Below, piece by piece: positions 7,001 to 35,621 of a DNA stretch of 35,621 bases. Origin of the DNA: Ruminococcus sp. (GTDB lineage Bacteria > Bacillota > Clostridia > Oscillospirales > Acutalibacteraceae). The DNA lies in the NCBI GenBank assembly GCA_023665555.1, contig JAMPDR010000022.1:1-35621 (forward strand). Reading direction: 5' to 3'. How positions within the stretch are numbered: the first letter of the stretch is position 1; the number at the start of each line of letters is the position of its first letter. The position numbers and the translations under genes are program-made. The notes under the pieces are model-generated. The model saw nothing but the letters and a program-made list of their open reading frames with translations, did no database searches and was not told the DNA's origin.

Positions 7001-7253
7001 TATAATATTTTATAATACATAATAAAAGCTATGACTGAAAAGAGTAGCCTGTTTCGCCGCTCAGAGAGGGATGCGGTTTGCTGTGAGCACCCTGCGTAAA
7101 TGAAAGAGGTGAAGACATTCACGAGCTGACGAAAGTCCGTTTGCTGCGTTAAAGCTTTTAAGTGGGGCGATTCTTCGCCCAAACAGGGTGGTACCGTGGA
7201 GCGTCGCTTCATCCCTATGATGTTGTTATCAGGGATGGCGATGCTTTTATTTT
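7001..7253 (+). promoter_or_regulatory. T-box leader of hisS-aspS (with -10 TATAAT at 7001-7006)
   Basis: A tRNA-sensing T-box riboswitch. A -10 TATAAT at 7001-7006 puts the transcript start near 7013. Stem I is recognisable from the GAGAGGGATGCGG and GTGAGCACCC elements (about 7060-7093), returning to the specifier loop GAAGACATT at 7111-7119. The highly conserved T-box core AACAGGGTGGTACCG lies at 7182-7196; its GGTG(G) bulge would pair with the uncharged tRNA acceptor end and stabilise the antiterminator. The specifier reads GAC (Asp, 7114-7116); two bases downstream CAT (His, 7116-7118) is also possible. Low tRNA charging should allow read-through into hisS and aspS. Confidence 0.92.
7200..7253 (+). 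terminator. T-box intrinsic terminator
   Basis: CATCCCT at 7210-7216 pairs with AGGGATG at 7231-7237; the lower stem, 7200-7207 with 7238-7245, continues after a TT bulge. A TTTTATTTT tract follows. The 5' strand of the stem directly follows the T-box core, with which the antiterminator would compete. Confidence 0.9.
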
Positions 7254-22374: not shown

Positions 22375-22428
22375 TATCAGTAACAATTGTAAAATTTTGT
22401 CAAATTGTGCTGAAAGGTGTCGAAGTCT

Positions 22429-24420
22429 ATGTTCGAAAAGAATAAGCCTGTCATAAAAAAGCTTATTTTGTTCTGCATGGCACTGCTCTGTTCATCACTG
22501 TCAATCAAATATGTAACGCTTTCGGTTCATTCTATTCAGATTGAAAACGAAAGCGTTTTCTATTATAAAAATCAGAACGCTTGCAATCATGAGCACTCTG
22601 TTTATGCTGACATAAAACCTGCCACATGCACAGAAAACGGCTTTACCGAGGGTATATTCTGCATTGATTGCGGGCAATGGGTTTACGGCCATGAAACCAT
22701 TGAAAAGAATAATCACAAGTATTACACAGTGGTAACACCGCCGACATGTAATTTTGAAGGATATACTACACATATTTGTGAATACTGCAATGATTATTAC
22801 ATTAATTCTATAGTTGAACCGCTTGGACACGATCGAAGCATTATTATGGATTTTACAGATTCGACCTGCACAAATATCGGAACTAAAACAGCTAAATGTT
22901 CAACATGCGGTGAAATTGAAACGGTTGAAATACCGCTTAAAGCGCATACGCACAGCGATTGGATCGTTGACGCTGTTGCCGATTGCACAAACAGCGGTCA
23001 GCGCCACATCTCTTGCAACGTATGCAAACAGGTGCTTCAATTTGAGGTATCCGCACCTTTGGGACATCATTATACCGTCACACATATGTCGCCTACATGT
23101 GTAAAAGAGGGAGTGGATCTTTACACATGTTCAGCATGCGGAAACAGCTATAGTGAGGTCGTATCGCCTAAACTTAATCACGATTTAACAGATTGGCAAG
23201 AAATACAGGCGGCGGGATGCACACAAAACGGAGTGCGTGAAAGAAAATGCTTAAACTGTGATTATATTGAAAAATCAGAAATTGGTGCTGTTGGACATAA
23301 GACATCATCATGGATAACGGATAAAGTTCCCGACTGTGAAAACAGCGGATACAGACATCGTGACTGTACTGTATGCAAGCAGACTGTTGCAACGGAAAGC
23401 ATACCTGCCAAAGGCCATAAAATTGTCACGCAGAAAGCAGTTGCGGCAACATGCACCTCTGACGGAAAAACCGAGGGTTCACAATGTTCCGTTTGCAAAA
23501 AGACACTGAAAGCACAAACTGTAATCAAAGCTGTTGGTCACAAAACAAAGAACACAAAAACTGCCGCAACAACAAGCAAAAACGGAAGCTACGGTACAAC
23601 CTGCTCCGTTTGTAAAAAGGCAATTACGTCAACGGTAATTCCGAAAATTGCTTCTGTTAAACTTTCTGCCGCCTATTTTTCATATGACAAAAAGGTCAAA
23701 ACTCCGGAAGTGATAATCAAGGACAGTAAAGGCAAAACGCTCAAACGCAGTACAGATTATACACTGAAATATGACAGCGGAAGAAAGAATATCGGCACTT
23801 ACAGTGTTAATGTTACCTTCAAAGGAAACTACAGCGGCACTAAAAAGCTTACCTTTAAAATTCTGCCTAATAAGCCGAATGTCATTACAGCATCACAAAC
23901 CACCTCGTCAGTCAAACTTACATGGAGCAAAGTTACAGGTGCAGCCGGATACACAGTATATCAATATGACTCAAAGAAAAAGACATACGTCAAACTTTAC
24001 AGTACAACCAAAACAAACTATCAAATCAAAAAACTGAAATCTGCAACAATATATAAGTTTGCCGTGAAAGCCTATGCCAAGGTTAATAAGACGACTTACT
24101 TCAGCAACTCATATAGAGATATCTCAATTGCCACTCTGCCTACCGTTCCAACGTTCAAAGTAACCGCAGGCAGTAAAAAAGCAACGATAACCTGGAACAA
24201 GGTGAGCGGTGCAAGCGGATATGTAATATACATGTCAACAAGTAAGGACGGAACATTTAAAAACATTGCATCCGTCAAATCGAGTGCATCAGCGAAGTAT
24301 GAAAAAAGCGGGCTTACCAAGGGCAAAACATATTATTTTAAAATCCGTGCATATAAAACGGTCGGCAAGATTAAGGTTTATAGTGCATATTCGGCCGTTA
24401 AGAGTGTGAAGGTTAAGTGA
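22429..24420 (+). CDS. Secreted protein with nine Cys-x2-Cys modules, MBG-like and two fibronectin-III domains
   Basis: Function unknown. The product (663 residues from the ATG at 22429, with AAAGGTG at 22413-22419) starts with a signal peptide (KPVIKKLILFCMALLCSSLS). Residues about 45-405 contain nine modules of about 40 residues with the pattern T-C-x3-G-x5-7-C-x2-C, most ending in G-H: CIDC, CEYC, CSTC, CNVC, CSAC, CLNC, CTVC, CSVC, CSVC. An MBG/YDG-like beta domain follows (FSYDKKVKTPEV to KGNYSGTKKLTFKI), then two fibronectin-III domains with the WSKVTGAAGYTVY and WNKVSGASGYVIY repeats. The ending KSVKVK has no anchor. The Cys/His pattern suggests zinc- or disulfide-stabilised stalk modules. 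It has its own promoter. Confidence 0.85.
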   Translation: MFEKNKPVIKKLILFCMALLCSSLSIKYVTLSVHSIQIENESVFYYKNQNACNHEHSVYADIKPATCTENGFTEGIFCIDCGQWVYGHETIEKNNHKYYTVVTPPTCNFEGYTTHICEYCNDYYINSIVEPLGHDRSIIMDFTDSTCTNIGTKTAKCSTCGEIETVEIPLKAHTHSDWIVDAVADCTNSGQRHISCNVCKQVLQFEVSAPLGHHYTVTHMSPTCVKEGVDLYTCSACGNSYSEVVSPKLNHDLTDWQEIQAAGCTQNGVRERKCLNCDYIEKSEIGAVGHKTSSWITDKVPDCENSGYRHRDCTVCKQTVATESIPAKGHKIVTQKAVAATCTSDGKTEGSQCSVCKKTLKAQTVIKAVGHKTKNTKTAATTSKNGSYGTTCSVCKKAITSTVIPKIASVKLSAAYFSYDKKVKTPEVIIKDSKGKTLKRSTDYTLKYDSGRKNIGTYSVNVTFKGNYSGTKKLTFKILPNKPNVITASQTTSSVKLTWSKVTGAAGYTVYQYDSKKKTYVKLYSTTKTNYQIKKLKSATIYKFAVKAYAKVNKTTYFSNSYRDISIATLPTVPTFKVTAGSKKATITWNKVSGASGYVIYMSTSKDGTFKNIASVKSSASAKYEKSGLTKGKTYYFKIRAYKTVGKIKVYSAYSAVKSVKVK

Positions 24421-24577: not shown

Positions 24578-24606
24578 TTGACAAACAGAATACAGTCACA
24601 TATAAT
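24578..24606 (+). promoter_or_regulatory. Perfect consensus promoter of the sulfoquinovose operon
   Basis: TTGACA at 24578-24583, exactly 17 bp, TATAAT at 24601-24606: a full consensus sigma-A promoter. Such strength normally needs a repressor. The -10 overlaps the palindrome at 24602-24630. The 326-bp gap from 24421 otherwise contains AT-rich sequence with a few weak stems and no gene. Confidence 0.85.
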
Positions 24607-24630
24607 TAATTAACAACGTTAATTAATTAT
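24602..24630. promoter_or_regulatory. Candidate ROK operator O1 (over the -10)
   Basis: A perfect inverted repeat with two 13-bp arms and a 3-bp spacer; its core is TTAAC-AAC-GTTAA at 24610-24622. It covers the -10 and transcription start, as expected for repression. The same core half-sites recur at 24710-24722. Confidence 0.7.
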
Positions 24631-24704
24631 GGCGAAGTTAAAATCAAAGTATATTACAAACAGTAACTGAATTTAAAGTGACTTCGGTGAGGCTGTCTAA
24701 CAAA

Positions 24705-24727
24705 ATTGATTAACTAAGTTAACTAAT
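24705..24727. promoter_or_regulatory. Candidate ROK operator O2
   Basis: TTAAC-TAA-GTTAA at 24710-24722, with partly matching flanks (ATT outside left, AAT outside right). Its centre (24716) is exactly 100 bp from that of O1 (24616). It lies just before the AAGGAGG at 24732-24738 of the first gene, so a bound repressor could loop DNA or block elongation. Confidence 0.65.
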
Positions 24728-24746
24728 TATCAAGGAGGTTTGAGTT

Positions 24747-26744
24747 TTGGAATTTCACAGTATATCAAACGGTGTTGAGATTTTATATAATGATAAGCCT
24801 GTTTTCAAAGTGCAAACCGGTGATTATTTATGCACTCTCGGAAAAGGTTCTAATGATTATTCTATGTGGCACGGCTCGTTTAAAATCAAAGAGAAGATTG
24901 ATTTTAAAAAGAAGATAGCTGTTAAAAGTGTTACAGTTGAGAACGATAGACTGATTATCACTTCTGACGAGATTGAGTTTATCATAACTGCCGAAAACGC
25001 AAGCCGCATAAAGATTGAACCTGTTACATCGGATGATTTCAATCGCATGTGGATAAGTTTGCCTGCAACACGGGAAGAAACCGTATATGGTTGCGGAGAG
25101 AATTTCACTGAATTCAATTTGCGCGGAAAAAAGGTCAATGCTTGGGTTGCCGAGCATATAAACGGCTTGCAGACTGCAAAGAAAATTATCAAACAGGTTT
25201 TCGGTATAAAAAATACAACCAAAAAGCAAAAGTTCTCAAGCTATGAAACATACTATGCTGAGCCGACATTTTTAAGTTCGGAGAAGTATTATTTTCACAG
25301 TGAGAGCACAGCGAGATCTGAATTTGATTTTACAAACGACGATTGTCATGTTATCAAAACTGACAGTATCGCTCCTTTCTATATCGGTTTCGATGATGAT
25401 TTTGAAAGCGTGATTTCTGATTTAACCTTACTTCTCGGCAGACAGCCGGAACTTCCCGAATGGGTTTATGACGGTGCGATACTTGGCATACAGGGCGGTA
25501 CTGATATTATGATGAAAAAGGTTGATGACTGCCTAAAATGCGGAACGGATGTTTGCGGCGTTTGGATTCAAGATTGGGAGGGCAGACGTGTAACCGCAGT
25601 CGGCAAACAGCTTCAGTGGAACTGGCAATGGGATAAAGAACTTTATCCGGAACTTGACTTGAAAATAAAAGAACTGAACAGCAAGGGAATAAAAGTGCTC
25701 GGATATATCAATCCGTTCCTTGCAGTGGAGAAACCGCTATATAAAGAGGCTCACGAAAAAGGCTATTGCGTTAAGGACAAAGATGGAAACGATTACTATG
25801 TTAAAATCACAACGTTCCCTGCGGCTATGCTTGACTTCACTAACCCCGATGCATGTGATTGGATAAAAAACATAATCAAGAAAAATATGATTGAATTCGG
25901 TTTTTCCGGTTGGATGGCTGACTTCGGTGAGTATCTTCCGACAGATTGTGTGCTTTACAGCGGTGAAGACCCCGAACTTGTGCATAACACATGGCCGGCA
26001 CGTTGGGCAAAGCTTAACCGTGAGGCAGTTGAAGAATGTGGTAAACTCGGTGAGATAATGTTCTTTACAAGGGCGGGATATACCGATACGAAAAAATATT
26101 CAACCATGATGTGGAACGGTGACAACCATGTTGATTATTCAATTGATTTTGGTTTGCCGAGTGTTATTCCTGCGGCTTTGTCGCTGACGTGTTGCGGATA
26201 TGGCTTGTCACATTCCGATATCGGCGGATATACAACGTTTCTGAACCTCAAACGCTCTGAGGAATTGTTCATGCGTTGGTGCGAAATGAACGTATTCACT
26301 CCGCTTTTGCGCGGACACGAGGGATTGAATCCCGATGCAAATGCGCAGTTTGACCATAGCGAAGCGACTTTAAAGCACCATGCAAAAATGAGCAGGATAC
26401 ACAGTGCGCTCAAACCGTATATTAAAGAGTGTGTTAAATACAACGCTGAATCAGGTGTTGGTGTTATACGACCGCTGTTTTTCTATTATAATGAAAGCAA
26501 AGCATATAATGAGGTGTACGAATACCTGCTTGGCAGAGATATTTTGGTCGCCCCGATTTTAAAGGCAAATGCTAAAAGCAGAGAAGTGTATCTTCCCGAT
26601 GATGAATGGGTACACCTGTGGAGCGAAAAAGAATATGTCGGCGGAGTATATACGGTATCTGCCCCTGTCGGAGAAATCCCGATATTTATCAGAAAAAATG
26701 CGAAAGACTTTAACAGTCTTATTGCGTTAAACAAGATTAAATAA
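24747..26744 (+). CDS. GH31 sulfoquinovosidase-type glycosidase (YihQ-like)
   Basis: Retaining GH31 enzyme predicted to release sulfoquinovose (SQ) from plant sulfolipid glycosides in the cytosol. Over 665 residues it follows E. coli YihQ closely: GIQGGTD (Gln249), IQDWEG (Gln275), WMADFGEYLPTD with nucleophile Asp392, MMWNGDNHVD with acid/base Asp459, and HSDIGGYTT with Tyr495. As I recall the YihQ sulfonate pocket, it uses Gln262, Gln288, Arg301, Trp304 and Tyr508. All have counterparts here except Arg301, which is Gln288 in GKQLQW (Trp291 kept). Substrate is thus very likely an SQ-type glycoside but with a variant pocket; a plain alpha-glucosidase remains possible. The start is TTG with a strong AAGGAGG 8 bases upstream. 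First gene of the operon. Confidence 0.85.
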   Translation: MEFHSISNGVEILYNDKPVFKVQTGDYLCTLGKGSNDYSMWHGSFKIKEKIDFKKKIAVKSVTVENDRLIITSDEIEFIITAENASRIKIEPVTSDDFNRMWISLPATREETVYGCGENFTEFNLRGKKVNAWVAEHINGLQTAKKIIKQVFGIKNTTKKQKFSSYETYYAEPTFLSSEKYYFHSESTARSEFDFTNDDCHVIKTDSIAPFYIGFDDDFESVISDLTLLLGRQPELPEWVYDGAILGIQGGTDIMMKKVDDCLKCGTDVCGVWIQDWEGRRVTAVGKQLQWNWQWDKELYPELDLKIKELNSKGIKVLGYINPFLAVEKPLYKEAHEKGYCVKDKDGNDYYVKITTFPAAMLDFTNPDACDWIKNIIKKNMIEFGFSGWMADFGEYLPTDCVLYSGEDPELVHNTWPARWAKLNREAVEECGKLGEIMFFTRAGYTDTKKYSTMMWNGDNHVDYSIDFGLPSVIPAALSLTCCGYGLSHSDIGGYTTFLNLKRSEELFMRWCEMNVFTPLLRGHEGLNPDANAQFDHSEATLKHHAKMSRIHSALKPYIKECVKYNAESGVGVIRPLFFYYNESKAYNEVYEYLLGRDILVAPILKANAKSREVYLPDDEWVHLWSEKEYVGGVYTVSAPVGEIPIFIRKNAKDFNSLIALNKIK

Positions 26745-26766
26745 TATTTTTTTGGAGGACAAAATT

Positions 26767-27453
26767 ATGAAATACTTTTTAGACAGTGCAAAAATTGATG
26801 AGATCAGAGAGGCTTATGACACCTTCGGTATTGACGGTGTTACAACAAATCCGAAGCATATTATGGATTCGGGCAAGCCGTTTTTCACAGTTATCGGTGA
26901 ACTTGCTGAGTTTGCAAAGGAAAAAGGAATCGAGGGTTGGGATAAGTTCCCGATATCGGTTGAAATCAATCCGCATCTTGACAGTGCCGATGAAATGGTT
27001 GAAATGGGTAGCAAAATTGCCGCAATGAGTCCGAATTTTGTTATAAAAATTCCTTGCACCGAGGCTGGTATTGCCGCAGCAAGACGACTTGAGCAAAAGG
27101 GTGTCAGAACGAATCTTACTCTTGTTTTTTCAGCTTCACAGGCACTTATTGCTGCAAAAAATAATTCTCTGTTTGTTTCACCGTTCATCGGTTGGAAAGA
27201 AAACAGCGGTGAAGATTGTGTTCAATATATTCAGGATATTGTTTCAATTTATGAAAACTACGGCTTTATCGGCAAGACACAGATAATTTGCGCCGCCGTA
27301 AGAACAGGCAAGCAGTTTGTTGATTGCGCCGTTGCAGGTGCGGATATTGTTACCGCCGGTTTACAGGTGTTTAAAGACAGCTTCTATCATCCGTTCACAG
27401 ATTACGGCCTTGTTAAATTCCAGAACGCATGGGATAACACAATCACTGATTAA
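26767..27453 (+). CDS. sftT: Transaldolase, probable 6-deoxy-6-sulfofructose transaldolase
   Basis: A 228-residue single-domain transaldolase of the TalC/FSA size class, with Schiff-base Lys94 in FVIKIP, plus GVTTNPK, TNLTLVFSASQAL and FVSPFIGW. In the sulfo-TAL pathway (called SftT or SqvA in Bacillus) it moves the C1-C3 unit of sulfofructose to glyceraldehyde-3-phosphate, giving fructose-6-phosphate and sulfolactaldehyde. Differences from ordinary TalC are visible: VRTGKQ replaces the usual RHPxH-like segment, and ISVEINPHLDS replaces the usual VSAEV region. The ATG at 26767 is chosen over a TTG at 26752 because GGAGG at 26754-26758 precedes it. Assignment to the sulfosugar rests on the neighbours: 22 bp after the GH31 gene and before a reductase gene. 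Confidence 0.85.
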   Translation: MKYFLDSAKIDEIREAYDTFGIDGVTTNPKHIMDSGKPFFTVIGELAEFAKEKGIEGWDKFPISVEINPHLDSADEMVEMGSKIAAMSPNFVIKIPCTEAGIAAARRLEQKGVRTNLTLVFSASQALIAAKNNSLFVSPFIGWKENSGEDCVQYIQDIVSIYENYGFIGKTQIICAAVRTGKQFVDCAVAGADIVTAGLQVFKDSFYHPFTDYGLVKFQNAWDNTITD

Positions 27454-27474
27454 TCGACTTGAGGAGATACTGCA

Positions 27475-28341
27475 ATGAAAATTGGTTTTATCGGACTCGG
27501 TATTATGGGCGAGTCCATGTGTGAGAATATTGTAAAAAAGCACGATGATAAGGTTTATGTCAGTGACTTGAATAAAGCACAAGTTGAAAAACTTGCATCT
27601 ATTGGCGCGGTTGCCTGCGAGAATAACATTGAGGTTGCAGAAAATGCAGATGTTATTATCACAATGGTACCAAAGTCAGAACATGTTAAAGCGGTCTATG
27701 CAGAGATCTTGCCGAAACTTCATGAGGGCATGATCTGCATTGACATGAGCACAATTGATCCGTCGGTTTCAGTTGAGGTTGCCGAAACAGTTAAGAAAAC
27801 AGGCGCGCAGTTTGCCGATGCTCCGGTTGTTAAATCAAAGCCTGCCGCAATCAGCGGTACACTCGGTATTCTTGTCGGCTGTGAAGAAGAACTTTTCCCT
27901 GCTATTAAGCCGATTCTTTCATATATGGGCTGCAACATTATTCGTATGGGCGAAAATGGCAAAGGACTGGTTATGAAAATATGCCATAATGCGCTTGTTG
28001 CTCAGATACAAAACGGTGTCAATGAAACAATGCTGCTTGCTCAGAAAATGGGACTTTCCGTTGATGATTATTATACTGCAATATCCTATGGCGGAGGTCA
28101 GTGTTTCTATCTTGACGGTCAGTGGCAGAATTTGAAAAACGAAAACTGGACAACTGCATTTTCGCTTGAAAATGAGCATAAGGACCTTGGTATCTGTCAG
28201 CGTTTGAGCGAACAGGCAAATTTCAAAATGCCTGTTATGGAAATGGTCAAAAAAATATATGATAAGGGTGTTGAAGCAGGCATCGGTAAAGAGGACTGGC
28301 GAGCCACCTATAAAATCGTAAGAGGCGATTATGATGCTTGA
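27475..28341 (+). CDS. Beta-hydroxyacid dehydrogenase, probable sulfolactaldehyde reductase
   Basis: A 288-residue member of the 3-hydroxyisobutyrate dehydrogenase family, predicted to reduce sulfolactaldehyde to 2,3-dihydroxypropanesulfonate (DHPS) like YihU. It has the Rossmann motif GFIGLGIMG, Asp31 at the end of the second strand (fits NAD(H) rather than NADP(H)), DMSTIDPS, and catalytic Lys168 in GKGLVMKICHN. The usual glycine-rich DAPVSGG loop is DAPVVKSKP here; Lys120 falls where YihU, as I recall, has the sulfonate-binding Arg123 (the same offset relates catalytic Lys168 to Lys171). Reduction regenerates NAD+, useful to a fermenting cell. It is 21 bp after the transaldolase gene and overlaps the next gene. 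Confidence 0.83.
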   Translation: MKIGFIGLGIMGESMCENIVKKHDDKVYVSDLNKAQVEKLASIGAVACENNIEVAENADVIITMVPKSEHVKAVYAEILPKLHEGMICIDMSTIDPSVSVEVAETVKKTGAQFADAPVVKSKPAAISGTLGILVGCEEELFPAIKPILSYMGCNIIRMGENGKGLVMKICHNALVAQIQNGVNETMLLAQKMGLSVDDYYTAISYGGGQCFYLDGQWQNLKNENWTTAFSLENEHKDLGICQRLSEQANFKMPVMEMVKKIYDKGVEAGIGKEDWRATYKIVRGDYDA

Positions 28342-28999
28342 AAGGCTTAACAAGGTAAACGATGTAAAAATATACTCCGTGTTTGACAGTGAGTTTGAAG
28401 ATTACGGCGCAGTGATTGATGGTTTTGATTTTTCACCATGGATATCTTACATGAAAAGCGAAACAGCCGTTCCGAAACAAAACAACATCTATGTTCCGTC
28501 TGATTCGCGTATGGAGCAAGGTCAGCTTTTTGATGATGTGCAAAATATACTGTACGGCGGCATGCCGATTCAAGTTGGATATTGTAACGGAAGAAACAGT
28601 ACATACAACGGCTTTGAATATCACAAATGCTCGGAGATCAATGTTGCTGTAACAGATTTTATGCTTGTTCTCGGATTGAAAAAGCAGATTAAGGATAACA
28701 AGTTTTACGTCGGAAACGAAAAAGTGTTCTTTGTTCCGGCAGGCACTGCGATTGAAATGTATCAAACAACGCTGCATCTGAGTCCGTGCAAAGTCAGTGA
28801 TGACGGCTTCAAAGCGGTTGTTGTGCTGCTTAATGGTACAAACACTCCGCTTGAAAAAAAGCCGGTTTCGGACAACGCTGAAAGCAGACTGCTTTTGCAA
28901 AAAAACAAGTGGGTAATCGCTCACAAAGACCGTGAACCGCTGATTAAACAGGGAGCGTATGCGGGTCTGATAGGGGAGAATAAAGAACTTAAATATTAA
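28331..28999 (+). CDS. DUF4867 family cupin-like protein of sulfoglycolysis operons
   Basis: A 222-residue protein that I place in DUF4867, a family found with sulfo-TAL genes. The fold looks cupin-like: GFEYHKCSE gives possible metal ligands Glu96, His98 and Glu102, FFVPAGTAIEMYQTTLHLSP adds Glu142 and His149. Such folds include sugar isomerases and lyases, so it may isomerise SQ to sulfofructose or open the sugar ring; its exact reaction is not certain from sequence. Two tandem ATGs (28331, 28334) overlap the end of the reductase gene by 8-11 bases, a sign of translational coupling. AGAGG at 28321-28325 serves either. Confidence 0.75.
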   Translation: MMLERLNKVNDVKIYSVFDSEFEDYGAVIDGFDFSPWISYMKSETAVPKQNNIYVPSDSRMEQGQLFDDVQNILYGGMPIQVGYCNGRNSTYNGFEYHKCSEINVAVTDFMLVLGLKKQIKDNKFYVGNEKVFFVPAGTAIEMYQTTLHLSPCKVSDDGFKAVVVLLNGTNTPLEKKPVSDNAESRLLLQKNKWVIAHKDREPLIKQGAYAGLIGENKELKY

Positions 29000-29018
29000 A
29001 TTTGTTTCGGAGGCAAAA

Positions 29019-30365
29019 ATGAATATTGACTATGAATTTGAATATGCATATATTCCGATAGGTGTGCCGACCTTTCATCTTGAATCGGCACAAAAGGAGT
29101 TTGAACACTCAGCCGAACTGCTGAAAAAAATTGACGGCAGTGTGAAAGTTCCTGATGAGATGCTGCTGTCGATTGATAAACTCAATGCATTTCTTGATGA
29201 AATCAAACCTGATTTGCTGATAGTTCAAAACATTACTTTTGCAAACAGTGCTTATATCAGTGAGGTTATCAAACGCTTTGATTGTCCGATTCTTTTATGG
29301 ACACTGCGTGAGCCGGTGATTGACGGTGGCAGATTGCGCCTTAACTCGCTCACAGGGGCATTTTCAGCAGGCAATACTCTGAAAAATTACGGCAGGAACT
29401 TTGAATATATTTTCGGCTCACCGAGTGAAGGTGTTGTTGAGAAAAAAATCAGTGCCGTTCTGAAAGCTGCAAGGCTTAAAAAAGCCATGCGTTCATTGAA
29501 CTTCCTGCAAATCGGTCATACTCCGCAAGGATTCGGATTCGGCAGAGCAGGCGACCTTGAAATGCTCAAATGCTTCGGTGTGAATCTTCTCTCAATTGAA
29601 GCGAGAGAACTTATTGATACGGCAAAAAGTTACACTTATGAAGATATTGCAGAATATCTTGCTGATGCAAAAAGCAGAATAAACGGACTTGAAAATACGC
29701 CGGAAAAAAACAGAAACGACTTTGCAAGACTGTACAAAGCATATGCCGATTACTGCAAAGAAAACAAAATCGGCGCAGTTTCATCACGTTGCTGGCCTGA
29801 CTTTTTCACCGCATTCGGAACACCTGTTTGTGCAGTTTTGGCAATGCTTAACGACCTTGGTATTCCTGCCGCATGTGAGGCTGATACCTACGGCGGATTG
29901 TCGATGTTTGCAGGTCAGTTCCTGACTGATGCACCAACATTTTTCGGTGACCCCGTTTCAATGGATGAGGGCGAAAACACAATCACTTTTTGGCACTGCG
30001 GAACAGCGGCATGCTCGCTTGCAAGAGAGGATACGGGTGCATGTGCCGATGTTCACTGCAACAGAAAAATCGGTCCGACACTTGATTTTGGATGTAAGTC
30101 TAATGACAGTGCAACTGTTTTCCGAATAGGCAAAGATGCAGAAGGAAAATTTAGGATGTTTGTCGCAAGCGGAGAAATTCTCGATAAACCGAAGCAATTT
30201 AACGGAACTTCGCTTGTTGTGAAAACTAAGAACAATGCCGCAGATATTATAAACAAAGCAGTCAAAGACGGCTGGGAACCGCATTTTGCTGTTGTTTACG
30301 GCGATGTATGTGAAGAAATAAAAGCACTTGCAGGTATGCTTGACATAGAGGTGTTTGATTACTGA
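29019..30365 (+). CDS. L-fucose isomerase-like protein, candidate sulfoquinovose isomerase
   Basis: A 448-residue protein of the L-fucose/L-arabinose isomerase fold, shorter than true FucI (about 590). The metal site of FucI (Glu337, Asp361, His528 in E. coli as I recall) appears kept: Glu287 in ACEADTYGG, Asp311 in FFGDP (the same 24-residue spacing) and His326 in FWHCGT. It should therefore be an active aldose-ketose isomerase. In this operon the fitting substrate is SQ, giving sulfofructose for the transaldolase. A fucose role is less likely because no fuculose kinase or aldolase is present. GGAGG precedes the ATG; it is 19 bp after the DUF4867 gene, and its stop overlaps the next start (TGATG). 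Confidence 0.8.
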   Translation: MNIDYEFEYAYIPIGVPTFHLESAQKEFEHSAELLKKIDGSVKVPDEMLLSIDKLNAFLDEIKPDLLIVQNITFANSAYISEVIKRFDCPILLWTLREPVIDGGRLRLNSLTGAFSAGNTLKNYGRNFEYIFGSPSEGVVEKKISAVLKAARLKKAMRSLNFLQIGHTPQGFGFGRAGDLEMLKCFGVNLLSIEARELIDTAKSYTYEDIAEYLADAKSRINGLENTPEKNRNDFARLYKAYADYCKENKIGAVSSRCWPDFFTAFGTPVCAVLAMLNDLGIPAACEADTYGGLSMFAGQFLTDAPTFFGDPVSMDEGENTITFWHCGTAACSLAREDTGACADVHCNRKIGPTLDFGCKSNDSATVFRIGKDAEGKFRMFVASGEILDKPKQFNGTSLVVKTKNNAADIINKAVKDGWEPHFAVVYGDVCEEIKALAGMLDIEVFDY

Positions 30366-31096
30366 TGATAAGCAAAATTATTTTTCTGGTAATCGTCTTT
30401 CTATCAAATATCATTCAGTGCATAACAGGCTTTGCAGGTACGGTTTTGGCAATGCCGTTTTCGGTTATGTCAGTCGGATATGATGTGGCAAAACCAATAC
30501 TGAACGTACTCGGAATTGCCGCCTCGGCTTACATCGTCGTGAAAGACCGCAAGCATGTGAATAAAAAGGAATTTGCAAAGATTGTTGCTGTTATGCTTGT
30601 TGGTATCATAGCAGGATTTTTCCTCAACAAACTTATCGGTACTGATGGTGGCTTACTGTATAAGATTTTGGGTTGTGTCGTAATTGTGTTTGCAGTAATC
30701 AACGCATATAGGTTTTATACAAAAAAAGAGGATAAGCAGTTTCCGATTGTTGTATCTGCCGCTTTGCTGATTGTTTCTGGTATCGTCCACGGAATGTTCG
30801 TTTGCGGAGGTCCTCTGCTTGTTACATATCTCGGCGGTATCATAAAGGATAAACGCGAGTTTCGCGCAACAATTTCGGCAGTGTGGATCGTTTTGAACAC
30901 GATTATCATGTTTGGCGATATTCAGTCAGGATATTTTAACGCAGATTTAGCAATTTTGCTTGTCGTATCCTTGGCGGTACTTGCAGCTGCGCTCGTTGTC
31001 GGTAATCTGATATATAAAAAAATGAGCAGAAACGTTTTTTTGCAGTTGACTTATGCGCTGATGCTGATAAGCGGCATATCTCTGCTTGTGAAATGA
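30365..31096 (+). CDS. TSUP (TauE/SafE) family membrane exporter, probable sulfonate exporter
   Basis: A 243-residue membrane protein of the TauE/SafE family with about seven or eight membrane segments in two half-repeats. Each half starts with the typical Gly/Pro pattern: CITGFAGTVLAMPFSV near the N terminus and GMFVCGGPLLVTYLGG in the middle. Family members export sulfite, sulfoacetate or other C2/C3 sulfonates; in sulfoglycolysis operons they are the likely exit route for DHPS or sulfolactate. The ATG overlaps the previous stop by one base, so translation is probably coupled. Product exported is inferred from the neighbouring genes. Confidence 0.88.
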   Translation: MISKIIFLVIVFLSNIIQCITGFAGTVLAMPFSVMSVGYDVAKPILNVLGIAASAYIVVKDRKHVNKKEFAKIVAVMLVGIIAGFFLNKLIGTDGGLLYKILGCVVIVFAVINAYRFYTKKEDKQFPIVVSAALLIVSGIVHGMFVCGGPLLVTYLGGIIKDKREFRATISAVWIVLNTIIMFGDIQSGYFNADLAILLVVSLAVLAAALVVGNLIYKKMSRNVFLQLTYALMLISGISLLVK

Positions 31097-31104
31097 GGTG
31101 AACT

Positions 31105-32214
31105 ATGGAGCAAAGCGGATTGAATTTTAAAGAAGTAAAATCAAGAAATATCAGCAGTATACTTTATCTTCTCAACAACAGTGCAATGAGCCGCAAAGAC
31201 ATTGCTCAGACTCTTGGTCTTACTCCGGCGGCTGTCACTAAAATATGCAATCAGCTTATTGAAAAGGGTATGATTGAGGAGAAAGGTGAGCAGGCTGACG
31301 ATGTTGCAAGAGCAGGGCGAAAAAAGATACTTCTATCGCTCAAACTCGCCGATTACCGTGCTCTTTGCATAAACGCGGAACTTGACAAAATTACTGTTTC
31401 GGTTGCAGGACTTGACGGAAGATTATATGAATCCGAAAATTTTAATGATATCAGAAATGTTGACAAACTGATTGCAGTTTCAAAAAAGATGTTCGAGCAG
31501 TCGAATGAAGAAAAATCAAAGTTTTTATGCACGGCAATTTGTGTCATAGGCTCAGTCAGAAAAAGCGAAATCGGACTTTGGGATAATGACTGCGTGATAA
31601 AAAAACTTGAGAAAGAAATCGGTTTGCCTGTTGTGATGGATAACAATGTTCGCGCCTTTGCACTTGCGGAACTTATCTACAGTCACAGAATATATGAAAA
31701 CTCAGTCCTGTTTTTAAAGTGGGGTCCCGGTATCGGTTCAGCTATTGCGGCGAACGGAGAACTGCTTTCCGGAAGTGACGCAGGTATTGCTGAAATAGGC
31801 CACTACATCATCAACCGCAACGGAAAAAAGTGCAGATGCAACCGCTATGGCTGCCTTGAAACAGAGGTTTCATCAATGGCAATCACTGAAGAACTCGGCG
31901 GCATAATGACGTTTGAAGAAATTATCAAAAGCAGTGATGAAAGCATCTGTAACCTTATGGATATAAAAATTGATTCGGTTGCGCTTGCTTTGACTAACAC
32001 TGCAACAATTCTTAATGCAGAGAAAATAATACTTTTCGGCATGACATTTGAAAACGTGAGCATCGCTGATAAACTTTATAAACAGTGCAGACGATATAAC
32101 AACAATTTCAATTCAAACACAATTGAACTTTCACAGCTTAATGACAAAATAACATTTATCGGACCCGCGGCGCTTGCCGCTAAGCATTTTTTCTTTGAAC
32201 GAAGCAATGCATGA
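31105..32214 (+). CDS. ROK-family transcriptional repressor
   Basis: A 369-residue regulator of the NagC/XylR/Mlc class. An N-terminal winged helix (about residues 12-60, MSRKDIAQTLGLTPAAVTKI) precedes a sugar-kinase-like domain. The zinc motif CRCNRYGCLE (Cys243, Cys245, Cys250) with His233 in GHYI is intact. ROK repressors release DNA when they bind a sugar or sugar phosphate, here perhaps SQ or sulfofructose. It is inside the operon it probably controls, 8 bp after the exporter gene. The two TTAAC-N3-GTTAA palindromes at the operon promoter are the best candidate binding sites. Confidence 0.9.
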   Translation: MEQSGLNFKEVKSRNISSILYLLNNSAMSRKDIAQTLGLTPAAVTKICNQLIEKGMIEEKGEQADDVARAGRKKILLSLKLADYRALCINAELDKITVSVAGLDGRLYESENFNDIRNVDKLIAVSKKMFEQSNEEKSKFLCTAICVIGSVRKSEIGLWDNDCVIKKLEKEIGLPVVMDNNVRAFALAELIYSHRIYENSVLFLKWGPGIGSAIAANGELLSGSDAGIAEIGHYIINRNGKKCRCNRYGCLETEVSSMAITEELGGIMTFEEIIKSSDESICNLMDIKIDSVALALTNTATILNAEKIILFGMTFENVSIADKLYKQCRRYNNNFNSNTIELSQLNDKITFIGPAALAAKHFFFERSNA

Positions 32215-32239
32215 ATCTGATAAAAAAGGAGAAAATTTT

Positions 32240-33652
32240 ATGAGTGAGAAAATAAGTACACACGGAATTAAATTTAAGGATAAAATCGGCTATGCCATGG
32301 GTGACATGGGCGGTCTTATGACATTTGGATTGGTTTCAGCTTTCCTCAACATGTTCTATACCGATGTTCTCGGTATTTCCGCGGCGAGAATCACCGTTTT
32401 GATGATTGTTGCCCGTGTTTGGGATGCAATCAATGACCCGATATGGGGCGCATTTGTTGATTCAAAAAAGCCGACAAAATTCGGAAGATTCAGACCTTAT
32501 ATTCTTTGGGCATCGTTCCCGATGGCGGTTGCCGGATTCCTCATGTTCACAAAAATACCGGGTCTTTCAGATAATCAATATTTGATTTATGCTTATATTA
32601 CATATATTCTCTATGGAATGATGTACACCGGTGTCAACATTCCGTACGGTTCGCTGGCATCTGTAATTACCGACGATGAGATCGAGCGTTCATCGCTTTC
32701 AATGTGGCGCTCCATCGGTGCAGGCATCGGCGGACTTCCTGCACAGATTTTGCTTCCGCTCGTGGTTTATTCAACCGTTCTCGGCGCGGACGGAACATCA
32801 GCAAAAGTACTTGATCCAACGAAACTTTCAACCTCCGTTGGTATCCTCTGCTTGCTTTCAGTGGTAATCTTTGCTGTCCACTTTAAGCTGACTAAGGAAA
32901 GGGTACAGTTACCTCCGACTCAAAAGCAGGAGAACTACAATGTTTTGAAAACAATGCGCGTACTTGTTAAAAATAAACCGTTTATCGTACTTTGCATTGT
33001 TTCAATGCTGCTCATCTGCTTCCAGATGTACACACAAACCGTGTATAACTATTTGTTCAAAAACTATTTCGGCAACCCGGGACTTTACAGTATTGTAACA
33101 ATTTGCACCTATCTCCCAATGGCAATGTTTTTGCCGTTCATGGGCAAACTTATCAGAAAATTCGGCAAAAAAGAAATCTGTTCAGTTGGTCTTGCGTTTG
33201 CCGCCGCAATCAATATTATCATGTATCTGATGCGTTTCACGCCGATGGTCAGCAATCCGTATGTGTTCCTTGTTCTTGTATTCCTTTCGGGTGCAGGTCA
33301 AACATTCCTTGTTCTTGAGGTGTGGGCGCTTGTTATGGACGTAATCGACTATCAAGAGTTTCTTTCAGGCAGACGTGAAGAGGGTACTTCCTACAGTTTC
33401 TATTCATTTGCAAGAAAGCTTGGCCAGACGATTGCAGGTGTAGGTGCGTCGGGAATCCTCGGCATCATCGGCTATGACGGCAAGCTGGCATCACAGCCGC
33501 CGGAGGTATTGACAAAGCTTTATGACGCGGCAACGATACTGCCGGCAATCATGCTGATAATTATGTTTGTACTGCTGGCATTTGGCTATAAACTTTCCAA
33601 AAAGCAGCTTGAAGTCCTCCACAACGACCTTGATTCCATGAGAACGGAATAA
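32240..33652 (+). CDS. GPH-family (melibiose-type) sugar importer, probable sulfoquinovoside transporter
   Basis: A 470-residue, 12-segment transporter of the glycoside-pentoside-hexuronide:cation symporter family. Signatures are GYAMGDMGGLMTFG in the first segment, FYTDVLGISAARIT, DPIWGAFVDSKKPTKFGRFR between segments 2 and 3, and GAGQTFLVLEVWALVMDVID in the second half. E. coli YihO/YihP of the sulfo-EMP operon belong to the same family, so uptake of SQ or its glycerol glycoside is likely here. The ATG at 32240 is preferred to an upstream in-frame ATG at 32174 because AAAAAGGAG lies at 32223-32231. Last gene of the operon. Confidence 0.87.
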   Translation: MSEKISTHGIKFKDKIGYAMGDMGGLMTFGLVSAFLNMFYTDVLGISAARITVLMIVARVWDAINDPIWGAFVDSKKPTKFGRFRPYILWASFPMAVAGFLMFTKIPGLSDNQYLIYAYITYILYGMMYTGVNIPYGSLASVITDDEIERSSLSMWRSIGAGIGGLPAQILLPLVVYSTVLGADGTSAKVLDPTKLSTSVGILCLLSVVIFAVHFKLTKERVQLPPTQKQENYNVLKTMRVLVKNKPFIVLCIVSMLLICFQMYTQTVYNYLFKNYFGNPGLYSIVTICTYLPMAMFLPFMGKLIRKFGKKEICSVGLAFAAAINIIMYLMRFTPMVSNPYVFLVLVFLSGAGQTFLVLEVWALVMDVIDYQEFLSGRREEGTSYSFYSFARKLGQTIAGVGASGILGIIGYDGKLASQPPEVLTKLYDAATILPAIMLIIMFVLLAFGYKLSKKQLEVLHNDLDSMRTE

Positions 33653-33702
33653 TATAATGATATGATAATTCCCAAATCTTTCGTGTTTGATCCCCATAAG
33701 AA

Positions 33703-33734
33703 TATGCTCCGCTGTTTTGGCGGAGCGTATTTTT
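33703..33734 (+). terminator. Terminator of the sulfoquinovose operon
   Basis: ATGCTCCGC at 33704-33712 pairs with GCGGAGCGT at 33720-33728 (one G-U pair), followed by a TTTTT tract. It lies 50 bp after the importer stop codon. Confidence 0.88.
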
Positions 33735-33856
33735 GTGCTTGCGCACGGCTATGATGCGGGAAAGTGTGTGCGCGGCGGTAAGATTAAGTCCGCAGGTGCT
33801 TGCGTGCGGCTCATATGCGTTGGGGGATTGTGCTGATGATAAGATTCAGTCCGCAG
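33735..33856. repeat. Two tandem copies of a 61-bp unit
   Basis: Units 33735-33795 and 33796-33856 both start GTGCTTGCG and end with TAAGATT-A/C-AGTCCGCAG; the middles are more diverged. Equal length and abutting ends show a tandem duplication. No coding frame or clear promoter is seen in it. It fills the start of the 441-bp gap before the BspA-type gene. Confidence 0.7.
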
Positions 33857-34093: not shown

Positions 34094-35621
34094 ATGAGCA
34101 ACAAATTGAAAAGAGTAATCGCATGCTTAGCAACTATAATTATGTTGCTTTGTTCTGTGCCGATGGGGAATTTTGCAGGAGTTGATTTCGGATTTACTGT
34201 AAGTGCAGAAGGCGAAGCGACAAGCGGTCAGTGTGGTGATAATGTTTATTGGACGCTGGATGATGATGGAACTCTTACTATTAGTGGTGAGGGCGAGATG
34301 TGGAATTATGGTTATTATGGGGGAAATATTTCTCCGTTTTATGAAAATTCTGGCATTAAAAATGTTGTAATAGAAAATGGTGTGACGAGCATAGGCGATT
34401 TTATTTTTTATTGGTGTTTTTTTATTGAAGGCATAGAAATTCCAAACAGTATAATAACTATTGGTGATTGTTCATTTGAATATTGCAATAGCCTTAAGTA
34501 TATTACAATTCCTGACAGCGTAACAAGTATTGGTGATTATGCATTATTAGATTGTTGTAATCTTGTAAATATTGATGTAACCGAAGGTAATGCAAATTAC
34601 TCAAGTATGGATGGTGTATTGTTTAATAAAGACAAAACACAATTAATTCAATATCCTAGAGGAAAAGAATTAACGGAATATATTATTGAAAATAGTGTAA
34701 CAACTATCGGTGAGTTTGCATTTGGATATTGTGAAAATCTAAAAAGTGTAATAATGGCAAATAGTGTAACAAAAATTGGCAACAGTTCTTTTTACAATTG
34801 CTACAACCTTACGAATATTGAAATTTCAAATAATGTAAAAACCATTGGTGCTCTTGCGTTTGGAGGTTGCACAAGACTTTCTAATGTTACAATTCCACGT
34901 AGCGTTATAAGTATTGGTGATTATGCTTTTACAGATAATCCATTAGTTGCCACTAGAATGGATACAATACTAAATATATACTATAGCGGTTCAAAAAGTG
35001 AATGGGAAAAAATTCTATTAGGAGAAGAGGCGTTCAGTGAAAAAGCTACAATTCACTTCAGTGAATCAACTCACACCCACAACTACACTCCAAAAACAAC
35101 AAAAGCCGCCACCTGCACCTCAACAGGAATAAAAACCTACACCTGTTCATGCGGTGACACGTATACCGAAACAATTGCAAAAACGACTCACACACCTGTC
35201 ACCGACAAAGCGGTATCCGCAACCTGCACTACAGCAGGTAAAACGGTAGGTTCACACTGCTCAGAGTGCGGAACAGTGATTAAAGCACAAACAACAGTTA
35301 AAGCAACAGGTCACAAAACAAAAACCACAACCACAAAAGCGACAACAAGCAAAGCAGGCAAAACCGAAACAAAATGCACAGTCTGCGGAACAGTGACAAA
35401 AACAGTTACAATTGCAAAGGTTTCAACAGTCAAACTGTCAGCAACATCATATGTATATGATGGTAAAGCAAAAACACCGTCAGTAACAGTAAAAGACAGC
35501 AACGGCAAAACGCTGAAGAAAGATACTGATTATTCAATAAAGTACAGTGCAAACAAAGCAATCGGAAAAGCAACTGTAAAAATCACATTCAAAGGCAACT
35601 ACAGTGGTTCAAAGTCTTTGA
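34094..35621 (+). CDS. Secreted BspA-type leucine-rich-repeat protein with Cys modules (3' end outside window)
   Basis: The frame is open from the ATG at 34094 (AGGAGGAAG just upstream) to the window edge: 509 codons without a stop. A signal peptide (KLKRVIACLATIIMLLCSVP) ends near residue 38. About seven BspA-type LRR units follow, to about residue 300, with recurring motifs such as IPDSVTSIGDYAL and IENSVTTIGEFAFGYC. A linker, then three Cys modules (CSCG, CSEC, CTVC) with TCTxxG and GH spacing, and an MBG-like domain (YVYDGKAKTPSV) cut by the window end. The last two modules plus the MBG domain are collinear with the protein at 22429-24420. BspA-type repeats are found in adhesins; the ligand is unknown. 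Fibronectin-III domains probably follow outside. Confidence 0.88.
   Translation, partial: MSNKLKRVIACLATIIMLLCSVPMGNFAGVDFGFTVSAEGEATSGQCGDNVYWTLDDDGTLTISGEGEMWNYGYYGGNISPFYENSGIKNVVIENGVTSIGDFIFYWCFFIEGIEIPNSIITIGDCSFEYCNSLKYITIPDSVTSIGDYALLDCCNLVNIDVTEGNANYSSMDGVLFNKDKTQLIQYPRGKELTEYIIENSVTTIGEFAFGYCENLKSVIMANSVTKIGNSSFYNCYNLTNIEISNNVKTIGALAFGGCTRLSNVTIPRSVISIGDYAFTDNPLVATRMDTILNIYYSGSKSEWEKILLGEEAFSEKATIHFSESTHTHNYTPKTTKAATCTSTGIKTYTCSCGDTYTETIAKTTHTPVTDKAVSATCTTAGKTVGSHCSECGTVIKAQTTVKATGHKTKTTTTKATTSKAGKTETKCTVCGTVTKTVTIAKVSTVKLSATSYVYDGKAKTPSVTVKDSNGKTLKKDTDYSIKYSANKAIGKATVKITFKGNYSGSKSL

Follow-up and report, generated by a model that had tools for sequence, protein, structure and literature searches.

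A glutamine-type GH31 glycosidase in a predicted ROK-controlled sulfo-TAL operon of a Ruminococcus genome

The DNA analyzed here, referred to as the window, is a stretch of 35,621 nucleotides from Ruminococcus sp. (GenBank assembly GCA_023665555.1, contig JAMPDR010000022.1); the genome carrying it has 2.6 Mb and is 98% complete. The window contains eight open reading frames (ORFs), all open and all on the + strand (24747-33652), in the order G-T-R-X-I-E-K-P. By sequence comparison, their assignment to an operon of the sulfo-TAL (sulfo-SFT) pathway, which acts on the plant sulfosugar sulfoquinovose (SQ), is well supported. The first gene encodes a glycosidase of the YihQ clade, in which a glutamine occupies the place of an arginine found in the solved sulfoquinovosidases. 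The features are:

24578-24606, + strand: sigma-70-type promoter TTGACA-17-TATAAT, 12/12 match
24747-26744, + strand: G, YihQ/SftG-clade GH31 glycosidase, glutamine type, 665 aa
25608-25610, + strand: Gln288 of G (codon CAG), aligned with YihQ Arg301
26752-27453, + strand: T, SftT-type sulfofructose transaldolase (BmSF-TAL match, Lys99, W148-K149-E150)
27475-28341, + strand: R, SftR-type NAD-binding reductase, predicted to convert sulfolactaldehyde to 2,3-dihydroxypropane-1-sulfonate (DHPS)
28331-28999, + strand: X, predicted SftX-type DUF4867 cupin metalloprotein (9gyy match, four metal ligands)
29019-30365, + strand: I, predicted SftI-type sulfoquinovose isomerase (NF048012)
30365-31096, + strand: E, TauE/SafE (TSUP) exporter, predicted DHPS exporter (PF01925)
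31105-32214, + strand: K, ROK-family regulator with winged helix (PF00480 plus HTH, operator co-occurrence)
32240-33652, + strand: P, GPH-type (MFS_2) importer (TIGR00792)
33695-33737, + strand: hairpin terminator (fold of stretch 33690-33740)

A first-pass annotation had described eight co-directional genes between one strong promoter and one terminator, and this layout is borne out by the promoter match, the terminator fold and the protein families. In operon order, Pfam calls GH31, TAL_FSA, NAD_binding_2/11, DUF4867, Fucose_iso_C, TauE, ROK plus HTH, and MFS_2; NCBIfam assigns P to the GPH symporters (327 bits). R and X overlap by 11 bases, I and E by a single base, and the remaining intergenic gaps are short. 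P probably starts at ATG 32240 rather than at TTG 32174 of the listed ORF, and T probably at ATG 26767. Promoter-like sites are abundant in the region (39 in total vs 22.4 +/- 4.7 in shuffles), so that only the perfect, rightly placed TTGACA-17-TATAAT carries weight. The terminator stretch folds with -27.8 kcal/mol (z -7.7), a value equaled by none of 200 shuffles. As had also been claimed, a kinase for sulfofructose and a dehydrogenase or dehydratase for SQ are lacking among the eight genes, to which this search was confined. Likewise, Pfam and NCBIfam detected among the eight none of the marks of a sulfo-transketolase pathway, i.e. a transketolase pair, RpiB-like genes and genes for iron-dependent alcohol dehydrogenases (Fe-ADH).

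The pathway assignment is carried by T, I and X. For comparison we used 80 named loci, the best 80 of 457 from a search with a transaldolase alignment; several of their contigs recur in our other searches, so that the sets overlap. With the solved sulfofructose transaldolase BmSF-TAL (8bc3), T scores 314 bits, and with the next solved family at most 143 bits. Its signature W148-K149-E150 together with Lys99 occurs in all 80 loci, and BmSF-TAL aligns with the same W-K-E. At this place, all 19 FSA-type transaldolases of the relatives search possess an arginine (G-R or N-R), which in FSA-type enzymes binds phosphate. T thus groups with the sulfofructose transaldolases SftT/SqvA, apart from FSA and TalB. 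For I, the only NCBIfam match is the SftI model NF048012. By similarity and signature, both enzymes thus fall on the sulfosugar side; a grouping with non-sulfosugar enzymes had been named as refuting the pathway. X matches the DUF4867 structure 9gyy of Bacillus megaterium with 221 bits; its residues E96 and H98 are constant in 52/52 loci possessing X, E102 and H149 in 51/51 resolved ones, and these are the four metal ligands (two histidines, two glutamates) given in PMC11968277. The same eight-gene order occurs in 21 of the 80 loci, which indicates a grouping beyond chance; many others are cut by contig ends or lack single genes.

Some observations weigh against this assignment. The score of I (395 bits) lies below the curated SftI cut-off of 700, as do those of six relatives (172-414 bits). 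R belongs to the beta-hydroxyacid dehydrogenase family, but YihU is only the 12th of 20 solved relatives listed (115 bits), and the sequence is nearer to 3-hydroxyisobutyrate-type enzymes. Family and position are right for the proposed sulfolactaldehyde-type reductase. That R is a predicted SftR is based on its operon position and on the constant residues V-K-S-K (119-122), K168 and N172 (74/74 resolved loci of 75). One might also ask whether the operon serves a non-sulfonated sugar, with T, I and X being generic. NCBIfam does give generic names to G and T, and in a separate class-wide DUF4867 search (best 30 of the list, 1.5-kb flanks) FucI-like isomerases were neighbors in 8/30 loci, as were FGGY kinases (8/30). 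This alternative seems very improbable to us, however, given the sulfofructose transaldolase signature instead of the FSA-type arginine in 80/80 loci, a TauE exporter in the operon, and no stand-alone sugar kinase among the eight genes. That automatic annotation would miss the pathway was correctly foreseen: NCBIfam calls G 'alpha-glucosidase', and the SftI match falls under its cut-off.

Among the relatives, an isomerase of a second type, with no more than 24-28% identity, fills the isomerase slot of L101, L103, L104, L105 and L112, beside GH31 enzymes of either the glutamine or the arginine type; those of L101, L103 and L112 score 172-205 bits with the SftI model.

With respect to the end point, a whole-genome search for the pyruvate formate-lyase (PFL) family gave a single match, which is pyruvate formate-lyase itself (932 bits over a 590-residue stretch; cut-off 994); PFL-family DHPS dehydratases or lyases (HpfG, HpsG) were not seen in the genome. 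Hence DHPS is probably the final product, which fits the DHPS export proposed at first pass.

The feature that sets the operon apart is Gln288 of G. At this place, all five solved sequences that were aligned (YihQ 5aed and 5aee, BmSQase 8r56, Eubacterium rectale SftG 6pnr, and the Agrobacterium enzyme 5ohy) possess an arginine, Arg301 of YihQ, which we take to be a sulfonate contact. Several features place G in the clade: It matches BmSQase 8r56 with 649 bits, the fold comparison groups it with the sulfoquinovosidases, and it keeps the catalytic pair Asp405 and Asp472 (YihQ numbering) as well as the equivalents of Gln262, Gln288, Trp304 and Tyr508, presumably all pocket residues. The YihQ-like glycosidase had thus been named correctly as to clade, but the missing arginine had been overlooked.

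This exchange is no peculiarity of the window. G is present in 74 of the 80 loci, as 75 pieces, of which 71 carry glutamine, one arginine (L195, Anaerotalea alkaliphila), and three are unresolved. Since these loci were found through T, the link between the glutamine type and T is here given by construction. When 398 genomes of the family were searched with G, 17 glutamine-type genes came up, 12 of them with T in the fetched stretch. In a wider set of 97 non-identical sequences (at least 550 aligned residues each), 86 have glutamine and 11 arginine. A tree of 53 of these places 40 glutamine sequences in one clade (100/100) and the two of locus L113 elsewhere; it neither supports nor contradicts a single origin of the glutamine type. 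At positions 128, 134, 354-356, 358, 360, 441 and 461, no residue is common to both types. Moreover, the 86 glutamine sequences carry basic residues (His137 in 84, Lys146 in 84, Lys or Arg at 149 in 76, Lys329 in 82), at places where the 11 arginine sequences have none.

L113 itself has two GH31 genes of this separate glutamine lineage, with Phe for YihQ Tyr508. The other seven operon genes were not found nearby; those neighbors that were analyzed with Pfam code for a solute-binding protein and for Trk transport functions.

What does the exchange mean for the substrate? Loops near the active site differ from the arginine type (354-360 is ITTFPAA in G vs FGEFYGG in YihQ), and together with the missing sulfonate-site arginine this suggests that SQ is possibly not the best substrate of G. 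In addition, G-X-I is retained, wholly or partly, in ten genus-mates whose genomes have no match to T or to the TauE protein of the window; G-X-I can thus exist without sulfo-TAL. Finally, G is missing beside T in six of the 80 loci; half of these are truncated before T, and in the other half (L137, L156, L174) there is room upstream but no GH31 gene was found in it. The latter may use free SQ or another glycosidase. All of this counts against the reading preferred here, and one could suppose that glutamine-type enzymes are inactive on SQ glycosides and free another 6-substituted glucoside, the operon importing free SQ directly. The breadth of the exchange, the co-varying changes (134, 137, 146, 149, 354-360, 441, 461), the genus-mates without transaldolase and exporter, and the five of 17 family genes with no T in the fetched stretch would agree with that supposition. 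We nevertheless hold it to be unlikely, for G accompanies T in 74/80 loci and is truly absent only from the three mentioned, the catalytic aspartates and the equivalents of Trp304, Gln262 and Gln288 are kept (that of Tyr508 in most), and the fold is that of the sulfoquinovosidases. Furthermore, a glutamine-type G occurs in the sulfo-transketolase-like operon L101 (SftI-like, DUF4867, Fe-ADH, TauE, GPH, RpiB). This setting and the 12 of 17 genes adjoining T argue that the glutamine type is still directed to SQ.

We think, therefore, that G still cleaves SQ glycosides with a changed sulfonate recognition. A more specific proposal, which we put forward tentatively and which may well prove wrong, is that in a large clade of Clostridia, mostly from herbivore guts, a second kind of YihQ-like enzyme has arisen that either binds the sulfonate without the hallmark arginine, via Gln288 and the newly conserved basic residues His137, Lys146 and Lys149 of an N-terminal-domain loop, or prefers another sulfosugar glycoside.

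The nearest operon relatives are mostly metagenome-assembled genomes (MAGs) labelled Clostridium, Eubacterium, Clostridia or Ruminococcaceae, and in many record titles goat, sheep, deer, horse or rumen is mentioned. Over all eight proteins, the closest full operons are those of G053 and G597, which belong to another genus of the same family (77-93% protein identity). A relative of G in L120 is 84% identical. Within the genus, T is absent in 32 of the 33 other members searched; transfer of the whole operon and loss across most of the genus would both fit. A scan of viral contigs found no relative of T.

Several observations concern the genus-mates. L021, L023, L024, L026-L028, L030 and L098 have SftG-SftX-SftI-like genes with no transaldolase, reductase or exporter nearby, and the transaldolase gene of one genus-mate (L032/L040, G026 contig 181) contains one in-frame TGA. 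A 918-aa ORF following I was rejected as a gene; it is an antisense frame in GC-rich DNA, and the opposite strand at the matching place of L024 encodes a GH3 gene.

In 22 sulfo-TAL loci without DUF4867, R and I are directly adjacent (-4 to 25 bp): L136, L137, L143, L144, L148, L151-L153, L155-L163, L166, L168, L174, L175 and L177. DUF4867 thus seems to be dispensable in nature. As to a replacement mutarotase, no recurring gene appeared among the neighbors of a few such loci, compared by ORF size only. A ROK gene is missing from all 16 loci that lack X and have sufficient flanking sequence. Of the sulfo-TAL loci, 51 have room downstream; both X and K are present in 30 of them, X alone in five, K alone in none, and neither in 16. 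A general pairing of DUF4867 with ROK proteins was considered and dismissed, as only one of the 30 DUF4867 loci has a ROK neighbor, and this is itself a GH31 locus (L224).

The regulator K is likely to act at a palindrome with the consensus AATTRATTAAC-NNN-GTTAAYYAATT, of which the operon leader contains two copies:

24604-24628, + strand: first predicted ROK operator (site 1), which covers the last part of the -10 hexamer; core TTAACAACGTTAA, 24610-24622
24704-24728, + strand: second predicted ROK operator (site 2), shortly before the ribosome-binding site; core TTAACTAAGTTAA, 24710-24722

In the window, TTAACNNNGTTAA occurs only at these two places (24610, 24710), and 0/100 shuffles had two copies. 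Sufficient upstream sequence is available for 68 loci; 22 of them have the exact core before G, often shortly downstream of a TATAAT. Conservation continues through the 10-base extensions (mean pairwise identity 57-63%) and is lower in the next 20 bases (32-37%). Presence of the palindrome goes along with the ROK gene: It was found in 20 of 36 loci with K vs two of 32 without (Fisher p = 1.6e-5, uncorrected for kinship), and the contigs of the two exceptions, L131 and L172, end before the place of K. If only the 51 loci with room downstream are considered, the numbers are 18/30 and 0/21 (p = 3e-6). A palindrome linked to the promoter and unrelated to K, e.g. the site of a global regulator, might produce this pattern. 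After thinning to 27 clusters the association shrinks to 6/15 vs 0/12 (p = 0.02), 12 of the 30 loci with K and downstream room lack the exact core, and L131 and L172 have it without a visible K. We judge this explanation to be improbable, because 1.14 Mb contain only 26 exact cores, 22 of them within the 25 kb preceding G, and because no ROK-less locus with downstream room has the palindrome before G. The preferred view, i.e. that the palindrome is the operator of K, likely holds, and K would then repress the operon through it.

From gene content, family membership, residue identities, conserved gene order and the conserved palindrome, we infer reactions, substrates and repression as follows. 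P would import SQ or its glycerol glycoside, and G, having Gln for the sulfonate-contacting Arg, would release SQ through the usual double-displacement mechanism. I would convert SQ to sulfofructose, with X helping at the SQ or the sulfofructose stage. T would transfer the C3 ketose unit to glyceraldehyde-3-phosphate, yielding fructose-6-phosphate and sulfolactaldehyde, which R would reduce to DHPS for export by E. K, bound to the palindromes at promoter and leader, would keep the operon repressed until the sugar appears. We are confident of this scheme of a ROK-controlled sulfo-TAL operon as a whole.

Elsewhere in the window, a T-box leader (105.7 bits) lies at 7022-7219, and according to Pfam large fn3-type and BspA-type leucine-rich-repeat proteins flank the operon (22417-24420 and 34094-35620).

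DHPS from this pathway nourishes sulfite-respiring bacteria of the gut, and the GH31 gatekeeper enzyme is a usual marker gene for SQ use; the glutamine type breaks the residue rule for this marker enzyme across many gut genomes. Should these enzymes see their substrate differently, surveys based on the marker gene need recalibration, and the arginine rule for recognizing a sulfoquinovosidase is too narrow. If our proposal is true, gene surveys count the glutamine type as ordinary YihQ. This could also partly explain why, in PMC13219744, few of the many rumen yihQ types are enriched by SQ. The predicted operator, in turn, makes a sulfo-TAL regulon of uncultured Clostridia open to testing. Both the glutamine-type GH31 in a sulfo-TAL operon and the operator palindrome of K look new: our literature search found nothing on a replacement of YihQ Arg301 in GH31 sulfoquinovosidases and no paper joining sulfoquinovose with 'ROK family', which is weak evidence of novelty, since most subscription journals lie outside the search.

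Sulfo-TAL itself, also with DUF4867 and in Ruminococcaceae, is published. Its occurrence in gut Firmicutes had been stated at first pass, but not the earlier report from human-gut MAGs (PMC8397734), in which, out of 4,930 species bins, 23 from Lachnospiraceae and Ruminococcaceae carry all four core genes. By their description, these clusters resemble the window in pathway and broad taxon; GH31 residues are not discussed in the sections consulted. A study of rumen YihQ diversity (PMC13219744) reports rumen Clostridia with YihQ-clade GH31 enzymes, as in the window, but its SQ-enriched taxa are of the sulfo-transketolase kind; its main text nowhere uses the words residue, motif, arginine or active site. 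Among the GH188 sulfoquinovosidases, too, some members encoded in sulfosugar gene clusters differ at the sulfonate-site residue (PMC11465081), although GH188 is an unrelated NAD-dependent family whereas G belongs to GH31. PMC11968277 describes the sulfo-SFT set of E. rectale and places DUF4867 in sulfo-SFT, sulfo-transketolase (sulfo-TK) and sulfo-Embden-Meyerhof-Parnas (sulfo-EMP) clusters, with an Oscillospiraceae bacterium among the examples; it also gives a kcat/KM near 1e5 per M per s for known sulfoquinovosidases and mentions that no mutarotase activity was detected for DUF4867, which PMC9594981 proposes to open the SQ ring. Bacillus (Priestia) megaterium provides the solved counterparts of T, X and G (BmSF-TAL, 314 bits; 9gyy, 221 bits; 8r56, 649 bits), but BmSQase has arginine at the place where G has glutamine. 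The same enzyme set, including DUF4867 and the exporter, is found in SftG, SftT, SftR, SftX, SftI and SftE of Eubacterium (Agathobacter) rectale (PMC11968277, PMC8397734). Its SftG (6pnr) has the arginine, too, in contrast to the Gln288 of G; the pathway is known, and the variant of its first enzyme looks new.

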